Assembly (NCBI RefSeq): GCF_039909015.1
Contig: NZ_CP150919.1
Span: 5,742,501 to 5,806,500 of the forward strand
DNA length: 64,000 bases
Origin: Pseudomonas grandcourensis
Lineage (GTDB): Bacteria; Pseudomonadota; Gammaproteobacteria; Pseudomonadales; Pseudomonadaceae
Direction of reading: 5' to 3'
The notes below the pieces were generated by a model. The model had not been told where the DNA came from. It ran no database searches and saw only the letters and a program-made list of their open reading frames with translations. This document shows, piece after piece, positions 27,086 through 32,542 of the stretch. Each line of letters starts with the position of its first letter. The first letter of the stretch is position 1. The translations under genes and the position numbers were made by a program.

Positions 27086-27109
27086 TATACCAAAAAACAA
27101 TATTGTACA
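27086..27109. promoter_or_regulatory. PplR/LitR-like operator upstream of the renalase gene (one mismatch)
   Basis: TATACC-N12-TGTACA at 27086-27109 differs at one base from the consensus T(G/A)TACA-N12-TGTA(C/T)A reported for P. putida PplR1. A further TGTACA half-site is at 27130-27135 inside the palindrome CTGTACAG. The site lies 48-71 bases upstream of the renalase ATG and about 126 bases from the divergent TIGR01777 start, so it could act on either. Confidence 0.65.
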
Positions 27110-27156
27110 GGTTTAAACCCCGGCGTAGTCTGTACAGAAAGGTAAACGAGGCCCCT

Positions 27157-28143
27157 ATGACTGTACCTATCGCAATCATCGGCACCGGCATTGCCGGACT
27201 CTCCGCCGCCCAAGCCCTGACTGACCTCGGGCATGTGGTTCAACTGTTCGATAAAAGTCGCGGCAGCGGCGGGCGCATGTCGAGCAAGCGCAGCGATGCG
27301 GGTGCCCTGGACATGGGCACGCAGTATTTCACTGCCCGCGACCGGCGTTTTGTCAATGAAGTCCAGCGCTGGCAAGCCAAGGGCTGGGTCGCCGAGTGGA
27401 CGCCGCAGCTGTACACCTACCACGGCGGCCAACTCAACCTGTCGCCGGACGAGCAGACCCGCTGGGTCGGCACCCCCCGCATGAGCGCCATCACCCGCGC
27501 CCTGCTCGGTGACCTGGAAGTGCATTTCGCCTGCCGGATCACCGAGGTCTATCGCGGTGAAGAGCACTGGCACCTGCAGGACGCCGAGGGTTTCACCCAC
27601 GGACCGTTCAGCCATGTGGTCATCGCCACGCCAGCCCCACAGGCCACGGCCCTGCTGGCATCAGCGCCGAAACTCGCCGGAGCCGCCGCCGGGGTGAAAA
27701 TGGACCCGACCTGGGCCATCGCCCTGGCCTTCGAAACGCCGCTGGAAACGCCCATGGAAGGCTGCTTCGTACAGGACAGCCCCCTCGACTGGCTGGCCCG
27801 CAACCGCAGCAAACCCGGACGCGACAACACCCTCGACACCTGGGTGCTGCACGCCACCAGTGCCTGGAGTCGCCAGCACATCGACTTGTCCAAGGAAGCG
27901 GTGATCGAACAGTTGCACGGCGCCTTCGCCGAACTGCTGCACGATTCCATGCCCGCGCCGAGCTTCAGCCTCGCCCACCGCTGGCTCTACGCCCGCCCCG
28001 CCAGCAGTCACGAATGGGGCACCCTGGCCGATGCCGACCTGGGGCTGTACGCCTGTGGCGACTGGTGCCTGACCGGACGCGTCGAAGGGGCCTGGCTCAG
28101 CGGTCAGGAAGCCGCCCGCCGCCTGCATGAGCACCTGCAGTAA
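27157..28143 (+). CDS. Bacterial renalase-type FAD-dependent oxidase
   Basis: 328 aa from ATG 27157 (GAGG upstream). FAD motif [15 protein letters not shown] at residues 7-21, then [14 protein letters not shown] at about 33-46 and a C-terminal second FAD contact LYACGDWC...[10 protein letters not shown]. From memory it is very close over its whole length to the characterised renalase of P. syringae pv. phaseolicola, which oxidises 2- and 6-dihydro-NAD(P) isomers back to NAD(P)+ with H2O2 as by-product. It would thus repair damaged nicotinamide cofactors in the cytosol. The operator just upstream suggests light-dependent expression together with the photolyase operon. Confidence 0.9.
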
Positions 28144-28201
28144 AGAGCATCGATCCGAGCAAATCGCTGCTGTCGCCCTGGACAGCAGCCCGTCAAAAAC
28201 C

Positions 28202-30198: not shown

Positions 30199-31662
30199 AT
30201 GAATAGCGTGGGCACCAAAATGCAATTGATCTGGCTGCGCAGCGACTTACGCCTACATGACAACACCGCCCTCTCGGCCGCCGCTACGCGCGGCCCTTGC
30301 GTGGCGGTGTATCTGCTGAGTCCGGAACAATGGCTGGAACACGACGATGCGCCCTGCAAAGTGGACTTCTGGCTGCGTAACCTGCGCGAGTTAAGCCGCG
30401 AACTGGGTCAACTAAACATTCCCCTACTGATCCGCCGGGCACCCCGCTGGGAAGACGCTCCAAGCGTATTGCTGAACCTGTGCCGACAATGGCAGGTCGA
30501 CGCGTTGCACCTCAACGACGAGTACGGCATCCACGAGTCCCGTCGCGATGCAGCGGTCGCCCGGACGCTACAGGCCGAAGGCGTCGAAGTTCACCGCTAC
30601 CTCGATCAATTGCTGTTCAAGCCCGGGAGCGTGCTGACCCGCACCGGCACTTACTTTCAGGTCTTCAGCCAGTTCCGCAAAGTCTGCTACGAACGACTGC
30701 ACCACTCGCTGCCCAGCCTGGTCCGCGCGCCGCACAAACAAGCGCCGCTGAACATTGCCAGCGATCCGATCCCCTTGAGTGTCGACGGTTTCGCAATACC
30801 CGCTGACAACCTGCGCAACCTGTGGCCGGCGGGTGAAGCCCAAGCCCGGCATCGCCTCGACAGCTTTAGCGATGCACAGATCGAACACTATCAAAGCGAA
30901 CGGGACTTCCCGGCGAAGCCCGGCACCAGTCAGCTTTCCGCCTATCTCGCCGCCGGGGTGATCTCTCCTCGCCAATGCCTGCACGCGGCCTTGAACAGCA
31001 ATCAGGGCGAATTCGAAAGCGGCAACACCGGCGCCGTCACCTGGATCAACGAGCTGCTGTGGCGCGAGTTCTACAAACACATCCTGGTGGGCTACCCACG
31101 GGTATCCCGACACCGCGCGTTTCGCCCGGAAACCGAAGCACTGGCCTGGCGCGATGCCCCCGAAGAACTGGCCGCCTGGCAACAGGCGCGTACCGGCTTG
31201 CCGATCATCGACGCCGCCATGCGCCAACTGCTGGCAACCGGCTGGATGCACAACCGCCTGCGCATGGTGGTGGCGATGTTCCTGACCAAAAACCTGCTGA
31301 TCGACTGGCGCGAAGGCGAACGCTTTTTCATGCACCATCTGATCGATGGAGACCTGGCGGCGAACAATGGTGGCTGGCAGTGGAGTTCCTCCACCGGCAC
31401 CGACTCGGCGCCTTACTTCCGGATTTTCAACCCGCTGAGCCAGTCGGAAAAATTCGACCCCGACGGCGTGTTCATCAAGCAGTGGTTGCCGGAACTGGCC
31501 GGGCTGAATAAAAAAGACGTGCACAACCCCGCCAATCTCGGCGGCCTTTTCGGTGTGGTGGATTACCCCTCACCGATCGTCGACCTGGGTACTTCCCGTA
31601 CGCGTGCGTTGACGGCATTCAAAAACCTGCCCTCGCGGCAATACGCCGCCGTTGGGTCATGA
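30199..31662 (+). CDS. phr: Deoxyribodipyrimidine (CPD) photolyase
   Basis: 487 aa from ATG 30199, immediately after the merR stop; ATG 30220 (MQLIWLRSDLRLHDN) would give 480 aa and also fits the family N-terminus. N-terminal antenna domain to about 130, C-terminal FAD domain with WINELLWREFYKHIL and the signature DGDLAANNGGWQWSSSTGTD (about residues 380-399). Repairs cyclobutane pyrimidine dimers with blue or near-UV light. It is the third gene of the operon, so production should be light-induced through the operators at 28202 and 28252. Confidence 0.95.
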   Translation: MNSVGTKMQLIWLRSDLRLHDNTALSAAATRGPCVAVYLLSPEQWLEHDDAPCKVDFWLRNLRELSRELGQLNIPLLIRRAPRWEDAPSVLLNLCRQWQVDALHLNDEYGIHESRRDAAVARTLQAEGVEVHRYLDQLLFKPGSVLTRTGTYFQVFSQFRKVCYERLHHSLPSLVRAPHKQAPLNIASDPIPLSVDGFAIPADNLRNLWPAGEAQARHRLDSFSDAQIEHYQSERDFPAKPGTSQLSAYLAAGVISPRQCLHAALNSNQGEFESGNTGAVTWINELLWREFYKHILVGYPRVSRHRAFRPETEALAWRDAPEELAAWQQARTGLPIIDAAMRQLLATGWMHNRLRMVVAMFLTKNLLIDWREGERFFMHHLIDGDLAANNGGWQWSSSTGTDSAPYFRIFNPLSQSEKFDPDGVFIKQWLPELAGLNKKDVHNPANLGGLFGVVDYPSPIVDLGTSRTRALTAFKNLPSRQYAAVGS

Positions 31663-31763
31663 ATGACCGCCACCGGGATGACTTCGATGCCGGGGCTTTG
31701 CATTATGAACATTTACCCGTATTGGGCTGGGTAACTGCCTGGCTGAAAAGGAGATTGGGATGA
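31659..31763 (+). CDS. Candidate 34-aa protein overlapping phr and the SDR gene
   Basis: ATG 31659 to TGA 31763. The start overlaps the phr stop as ATGA (31659-31662), and the stop overlaps the SDR start as ATGA (31760-31763). The ribosome site of the SDR (AAGGAG at 31748-31753) lies within it. The peptide begins MNDRHRDDFDAGALHYEH and ends WLKRRLG: acidic front, Trp-containing amphipathic, basic tail. No good ribosome site of its own, so translation would rely on coupling from phr. Third-position GC falls along it, a caution. No family recognised. Confidence 0.5.
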   Translation: MNDRHRDDFDAGALHYEHLPVLGWVTAWLKRRLG

Positions 31764-32542
31764 GTCGTACACTCGCACGACGATACTGGCTGACAGGTGC
31801 CAGCAGCGGCATCGGTGCCGCCCTGGCCGAAGAAATCCTAAAAACCGGTGCGCACCTGGCCGTCAGTTCGCGCACCGTGGCACCACTGAAAGACTTGTCG
31901 CTACGTTACCCGGGGCAGGTGCTGGTGGTCGCCGGAGACCTGACCAACAGCCAGGCCGTACGCGAGATCGGCGAGCAGATTGCCGAGGACTGGGGCTCGC
32001 TGGACACCGTGATACTCAACGCCGGCACCTGCGAGTACGTGGATGCCAAGCAGTTCGATACCTCGATTGTCGAGCACGTGGTGCGTACCAACCTGTTGGC
32101 CAGCAGTTTTTGCATCGACGCCGCACTGCCTTTGCTGCGTGCCGGCACCGCACCGCATCTGGTAGCCATGGCCAGTACGGTGACCTACCTGCCGCTGCCC
32201 AAGGCAGAAGCCTGCGGCACCTCGAAGGCCGGGCTGCGTTACCTGTTCGAGTCCCTGCGCATCGACCTGGCTCCGGAGGGCATAGAACTCACGGTGATCA
32301 GCCCCGGGGTTGTCGAGACGCCGCTGACGGCGAAAAACGACTCCCCCATGGCCTTGAGCTGGCCGGTGGACAAAGCCGCACGGCACATCCTCGAAAAACT
32401 CAAGGACCGTCCGCTGGAGATCGCTTTCCCGGCAGCGTTCATGACCGCCCTCTGGCCACTCGCCAAACGGCCGGACCAAGTGAAACTGGAGATCGGCAAA
32501 CCCATGGTGCGCAGCCAGCCACCGATCAAGGATCAACCCTGA
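31760..32542 (+). CDS. Short-chain dehydrogenase/reductase-like protein with Cys in place of the catalytic Tyr
   Basis: 260 aa. NAD(P) motif TGASSGIGAALAE at residues 12-24, NAG at 87-89, catalytic Ser at about 139, and Lys156 of YxxxK. The Tyr position is Cys152 (TGC at 32213-32215, within ACGTSKAGLRYL); the usual TAC codon is one base away. Without Tyr the standard hydride/proton relay should fail, so this is either an altered or non-catalytic SDR or a recent mutation in this strain. Last gene of the light operon as I read it. AAGGAG precedes the start. Confidence 0.88.
   Translation: MSRTLARRYWLTGASSGIGAALAEEILKTGAHLAVSSRTVAPLKDLSLRYPGQVLVVAGDLTNSQAVREIGEQIAEDWGSLDTVILNAGTCEYVDAKQFDTSIVEHVVRTNLLASSFCIDAALPLLRAGTAPHLVAMASTVTYLPLPKAEACGTSKAGLRYLFESLRIDLAPEGIELTVISPGVVETPLTAKNDSPMALSWPVDKAARHILEKLKDRPLEIAFPAAFMTALWPLAKRPDQVKLEIGKPMVRSQPPIKDQP

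Follow-up and report, generated by a model that had tools for sequence, protein, structure and literature searches.

The 64,000-nucleotide stretch of the Pseudomonas grandcourensis genome analysed here (the window; contig NZ_CP150919.1, positions 5,742,501 to 5,806,500, forward strand) carries a locus in which a renalase gene lies directly upstream of a group of genes headed by rudS, and which we read, with a probability of roughly 85%, as a reduced form of the blue-light regulon that class II LitR repressors and a short LOV photoreceptor govern in Pseudomonas. In the dark, the LitR proteins of this strain (the copy in the window and a second copy elsewhere) would bind two operators, Site 1 and Site 2, and stop sigma-70 RNA polymerase from using the rudS promoter, and a single further site would block the promoter of the renalase gene. 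On exposure to blue light, the short LOV protein would bind the helix-turn-helix (HTH) domain of LitR, which would then leave the DNA, allowing RudS (which erases photosensitive 4-thiouridine in tRNA), LitR, a photolyase, a short-chain dehydrogenase (SDR) and the renalase to be made. The anatomy of the locus, the homology of its genes and the conservation of its sites are direct results of this analysis; light induction, operator footprint and LOV anti-repression are known from published work on relatives (Maruyama et al., 2022, PMC9758184), as is the activity of RudS (Jamontas et al., 2024, PMC11417400), and we infer that the same light switch, renalase included, works in this strain.

The reading is anchored at the rudS promoter, for which a footprinted counterpart exists in P6650, a promoter of the pmlR1 region in Pseudomonas mendocina NBRC 14162. 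There, transcription from a TTGACT-N16-TATGAT promoter starts 48 bp upstream of the ATG, with the -35 element covered by Site 1 and with Site 2 between the start and the ATG (PMC9758184). The window shows the same hexamers and spacing and the two TGTACA-N12-TGTACA sites at the same positions, so that the transcription start, taken from P6650, can be put near 28250. The preliminary description of this DNA had already named this promoter, the 50-bp spacing of its two sites, their exact match to T(G/A)TACA-N12-TGTA(C/T)A and a one-mismatch site before the renalase gene, all of which a pattern scan bore out; its statement that the two sites bracket the promoter is roughly right, in that the -10 element (28236-28241) does lie between them, whereas the -35 element (28214-28219) lies inside Site 1.

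A promoter scan gave 1 match versus 1.2 in shuffles, so that the weight is carried by the match to P6650. At up to two mismatches, the window held 7 operator sites versus a shuffled mean of 1.23 (7 were reached in 0/100 shuffles). The whole genome, a single contig of 6.76 Mb, at up to one mismatch held 16 versus 12 for the reversed pattern, so that rarity alone proves little. The weight rests instead on the fact that two of the three exact sites in the genome are Sites 1 and 2, which share a promoter at a spacing of 50 bp, and on their conservation in relatives. The third exact site (contig position 5307384), at the 5' end of an open reading frame (ORF) for a response regulator, served as a control for the conservation of the rudS and renalase sites: a matching stretch of about 3.1-3.6 kb was found in 17 of 28 other genomes searched (18/29 with the own genome), and none of the 17 kept the site at up to two mismatches, for which reason it looks like a chance occurrence. 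By comparison, among loci that yielded rudS together with sufficient upstream sequence, both promoter sites were present at up to one mismatch in 75/80 loci of close relatives, 71/86 loci of the genus and 14/26 loci of other genera, spaced 49-53 bp apart and exactly 50 bp in 121/160 pairs; some species may be counted twice, once in the close set and once among the 30 nearest genus loci. Of the 12 one-mismatch places outside the window, the two examined adjoin genes without an evident link to light, and the regulon may reach further.

The regulator and the photoreceptor that such a switch would need are both encoded in the genome. The LitR of the window has the domain make-up of class II LitR: it combines a MerR domain (MerR_1, E 2e-16) with B12-binding_2 (PF02607, E 9.9e-8) and gave no match to B12-binding (PF02310) at E up to 0.01. 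The preliminary description had proposed a genome search for a LOV gene beside another PplR homologue, and one was indeed found beside a second class II LitR (G000:C1:1025239-1026060), which shares 35-37% identity with the window copy and has a very similar HTH region. This gene (L011:6805-7281), one ORF past the second LitR, encodes a short LOV protein of 158 residues with the adduct-cysteine motif YQDCRFLQ and no effector domain, whose best match is PDB 7yx0 (E 4.9e-74). On the other side of the second LitR stand ORFs that we read as folM-like and folE-like. Together with the match to P6650 and pmlR1, this gene pair supports the earlier interpretation of a class II LitR repressor working with a short LOV protein. 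In P. mendocina, the illuminated LOV protein binds the HTH domain of LitR2 and lifts repression in vitro, although the study is itself divided on the outcome, its gel shifts indicating that the LitR2/LOV complex stays on the DNA and its surface plasmon resonance indicating release (PMC9758184). A LitR homologue, of either copy, was found in 197/199 genus genomes, the own one included. Two further ORFs lie near the second LitR: one of 201 residues between it and the LOV gene (L011:6145-6750), without a Pfam match and perhaps, by its position, the counterpart of P. mendocina PME15565, and one between the folM-like ORF and the second LitR (L011:4389-5072), with a weak ABM match just below the cut-off and no operator found upstream.

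The inclusion of the renalase gene, which the preliminary description had singled out for a second look, is supported by conservation across genera. The one-mismatch site lies 71 bp upstream of the gene, its right half overlapping a putative -35 element (TTGTAC, 27103-27108) that is followed 17 bp on by a putative -10 element (TAGTCT, 27126-27131); this promoter is our own reading of the sequence. In the close set (80 loci, two of them cut off), the site was present at up to one mismatch in all 78 testable loci, at a distance of 71-73 bp upstream of the start codon; its left half reads TATACC or TGTACC in 77 and TATACT in one. In the genus set (the 30 nearest loci and 60 hand-picked toward lower identity, from 199 genomes searched), it occurred at up to one mismatch in 85/90 loci and exactly in 13. 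The wider set of 40 loci comprised 39 that were picked from the 76 matched genomes of other genera and cover 15 genera, plus G123 of the own genus; here, an exact site stood within 300 bp in 20/40 (19 from other genera and G123), covering seven of the 15 other genera sampled (g2, g5, g9, g10, g12, g16 and g19). Of 59 permuted half-sites used as controls, every one scored 0/40, and other spacings of the true half-sites scored no more than 3/40 (N11). The two g2 sites lie more than 200 bp upstream and beside a divergent gene, and may therefore not belong to the renalase gene. An additional TGTACA follows 21 bases after the right half of the operator, at the end of the putative -10 (27104-27136); half-sites at this N21 spacing were found in 77/78 close, 34/90 genus and 0/40 wider loci.

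A different explanation of this pattern would be that only the rudS operon is light-regulated and that the site before the renalase gene is a conserved promoter element or the site of another regulator. Close relatives indeed keep nearly the whole element, spacer included, together with the -10, and one half-site in this strain reads TATACC. In distant Pseudomonas and other genera, however, the spacer is unrelated while both half-sites are exact at N12, the permuted half-sites give no matches, and TATACC-N12-TGTACA contains the very half-sites that the folM site of P. mendocina shows on its other strand (PMC9758184), so that we consider this explanation quite unlikely. The data rather point to an operator before the renalase gene that several genera have conserved, and suggest that the neighbouring renalase answers to the same light switch there.

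Several observations nevertheless weigh against a light regulon that includes renalase. This strain's renalase site carries a mismatch, no site at up to one mismatch was present in 5/90 genus and 19/40 wider loci, and the exact site was absent in eight of the 15 other genera sampled. The putative -10, TAG(T/C)CT 16-18 bp after the site, is kept in 78/78 close and 73/85 genus loci with the site, which supports the reading, but in few loci of other genera (5/21 in the wider set). A loss of the site following the loss of LitR was considered and rejected: no LitR was found in G093 (L179, no renalase site) or in G123 (L226, exact site; a draft of about 330 contigs), LitR was present in four genomes without the site (G187, G027, G069 and G028), and from this mixed pattern we draw no inference. 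No site within three mismatches was found upstream of the folM-like ORF, unlike in P. mendocina, where folM has an operator (PMC9758184). Finally, P. putida PP_0738-PP_0742, of which PP_0742, next to RudS (PP_0741), should by gene order be the renalase, rose together in co-culture, which speaks for the regulon, yet at equal illumination and in no comparison of light with dark (PMC11014904). This rise, together with the distance of the LOV gene from the rudS operon (contig positions 1.03 Mb and 5.77 Mb), could also be explained if LitR answered a signal other than blue light via LOV, e.g., general stress or B12 binding. We regard this as very improbable, since the regulator shows neither a match to the B12-binding domain nor the DxHxxG motif, and since the LOV gene stands beside LitR2 as in P. 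mendocina, whose pmlR1, at a locus apart from LOV, is light-induced (PMC9758184).

Bacterial renalase oxidises 2- and 6-dihydroNAD(P). In the blue-light regulon that we propose, the enzyme would remove NAD(P)H isomers formed in the light, and it is conceivable, albeit doubtful, that renalase is a core LitR/LOV target across the genera of the Pseudomonadaceae whose job is photoprotection by this route, alongside photolyase for DNA and RudS for tRNA. A conserved light operator makes the question of why bacteria keep a renalase directly testable.

Site 2 deserves separate consideration. As noted in the preliminary description, it is nearly palindromic, and neither of the other sites matches it in symmetry; it sits within a perfect 12-bp inverted repeat around an AAAA loop (28250-28277) that begins at the inferred first transcribed base. 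Among 140 distinct Site 2 sequences, the inner positions 7-18, 8-17 and 9-16 were complementary in 97, 102 and 74 cases, versus 78.3, 80.5 and 34.3 expected (0/1000 permutations each), and no such excess of these pairs appeared in Site 1 (74 distinct) or the renalase site (68 distinct). With slid partners as control, pair 9-16 stood at 76/144 versus 35.3 expected and slid partners at 43 at most, none with a like excess; the excess of pair 7-18 was smaller, and one slid partner reached a like ratio (45 versus 36). Site 2 might thus double as a 5'-terminal stem-loop of the mRNA selected at the RNA level, in line with the perfect repeat, the covarying inner pairs, an RNA fold z of -3.89 and, in 101/144 variants, a spacer whose fold ranks in the top tenth of its shuffles (9/143 for Site 1 and 6/74 for the renalase site). 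An RNA stem should, however, tolerate G-U above A-C mismatches, and over all 144 variants the two types were about equally common (GT+TG 45 versus AC+CA 48); G-U-type exceeded A-C-type in the close set alone (21 versus 13), the counts being 19 versus 18 in the genus set and 5 versus 17 in other genera. The RudS tree also gave a low number of complementary double changes, about 4-6 for each pair. Symmetry of the DNA itself, arising from dimer binding or template-switch correction, would explain the same data and is favoured by the similar mismatch counts; with the wobble test unsupportive over all variants and the tree signal modest, we dropped the claim of an RNA hairpin, which we judge unlikely.

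Table 1. Features of the locus, in window coordinates
Feature	Position	Strand	Remarks
Operator 3, TATACC-N12-TGTACA, one mismatch	27086..27109	+	upstream of renalase
Renalase, flavin adenine dinucleotide (FAD) flavoprotein	27157..28143	+	phmmer, PDB 4zcc 'Renalase', E 1.1e-183; Amino_oxidase domain
Operator 1 (Site 1), exact	28202..28225	+	overlaps -35
rudS promoter, TTGACT-N16-TATGAT	28214..28241	+	hexamers and spacing identical to P6650
Operator 2 (Site 2), exact	28252..28275	+	between inferred transcription start (about 28250, by homology) and ATG
rudS, TudS-DUF1722 tRNA 4-thiouridine desulfidase	28298..29257	+	Pfam domains; Cys15, Cys47, Cys112
Class II LitR	29257..30198	+	MerR HTH and B12-binding_2, no B12-binding domain match
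phrB, class I cyclobutane pyrimidine dimer (CPD) photolyase	30199..31662	+	NF007955 above cut-off; E 2.9e-124 to 1dnp
C-terminal relic (34 codons) of a SnoaL-like gene	31659..31763	+	intact counterpart of 142 residues in relative L065
SDR	31760..32542	+	family-profile matches

The genes of the locus (Table 1) were confirmed by profile and phmmer matches as those named earlier from the sequence, i.e., renalase, a DUF523-DUF1722 gene, a class II LitR-like regulator, a photolyase and an SDR, and the genes from rudS to the SDR abut or overlap, which fits an operon. The renalase assignment rests on a solved renalase matched over its full length and that of the photolyase on the equivalog NF007955, which scored 533 bits against a cut-off of 506. 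By its domains, the DUF523-DUF1722 gene is RudS, a TudS fused to DUF1722 and a predicted tRNA 4-thiouridine desulfidase; RudS strips 4-thiouridine from tRNA and lessens the growth delay under ultraviolet A (PMC11417400). The protein of the window is 98% identical to RudS of P. jessenii DSM 17150 (L046), has all three cluster cysteines (RudS_PU numbering) and, as judged by eye, the N-terminal catalytic and tRNA residues listed in PMC11417400, at positions two below the KT2440 numbering. The gap between renalase and Site 1 (28144-28201) holds a stem, GCTGCTGTC-GCCCTG-GACAGCAGC, with no T run on either side by eye; Rfam returned nothing at the gathering score over 26000-34000, and a terminator scan was uninformative (7 matches versus 6.1 in shuffles).

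The short ORF between phrB and the SDR, present as described earlier, turned out to be the C-terminal relic of a SnoaL-like gene: 31 of its 34 residues (24 identical, E 1e-15) can be aligned with the final part of the 142-residue SnoaL-like protein of L065, encoded between phrB and the SDR. In L065, the SDR is followed by DUF1365, a CMAS-type methyltransferase in the place of UfaM, and DUF2878, and this DUF1365/UfaM module is missing from the window locus. A genome-wide search at E up to 0.001 gave no match to DUF1365 or to the CryB family (DPRP); for UfaM, the search covered the locus. The short layout occurs in 40 of the 80 close loci and the long one in 34, of which 29 show a SnoaL-sized gap; 5 more are intermediate and 1 is incomplete. 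The furan fatty acid module thus appears to have been lost from this light operon, and 40/80 close loci likewise have the operon without it.

In kind, the locus is ordinary, a reduced form, in a soil Pseudomonas, of a light regulon already described. The present analysis identifies RudS, recognises a relic gene and the loss of a module, places the LOV partner at another locus of the genome and adds support from several genera for renalase as a target. The locus shows a compact photoprotection set in which a single blue-light switch would govern the care of DNA, of tRNA and perhaps of nicotinamide cofactors.

The closest described system is that of P. mendocina, which shares the gene order first gene (hypothetical there)-LitR-phrB-SDR and has, in its pmlR2 cluster, a LitR with LOV and folM/folE like the second LitR locus of this strain. 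It differs in an FAD-oxidoreductase, DUF1365, UfaM and following genes, which are missing from the window locus (PMC9758184), and the SnoaL-like gene that is a relic here has its counterpart there probably, by gene order, in PME6635. The word renalase does not occur in the main text of that study, and no link between renalase and light control in bacteria appeared among the literature matches listed, as judged by title and abstract opening; the protein itself matches bacterial renalase (PDB 4zcc/4zcd/5krq). The PplR1 regulon of P. putida KT2440 has 19 light-inducible genes, including ufaM, folE and cryB (cited in PMC9758184), and shares with the window locus the operator consensus, phrB, PplR1 and RudS (PP_0741; as cited in PMC9758184, PMC11417400, PMC11014904 and PMC8508746). 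RudS as described by Jamontas et al. (2024, PMC11417400) shows no difference that we could see from the protein of the window and shares with it the TudS-DUF1722 fusion, the cluster cysteines, the catalytic residues and a light operon with phrB and LitR.

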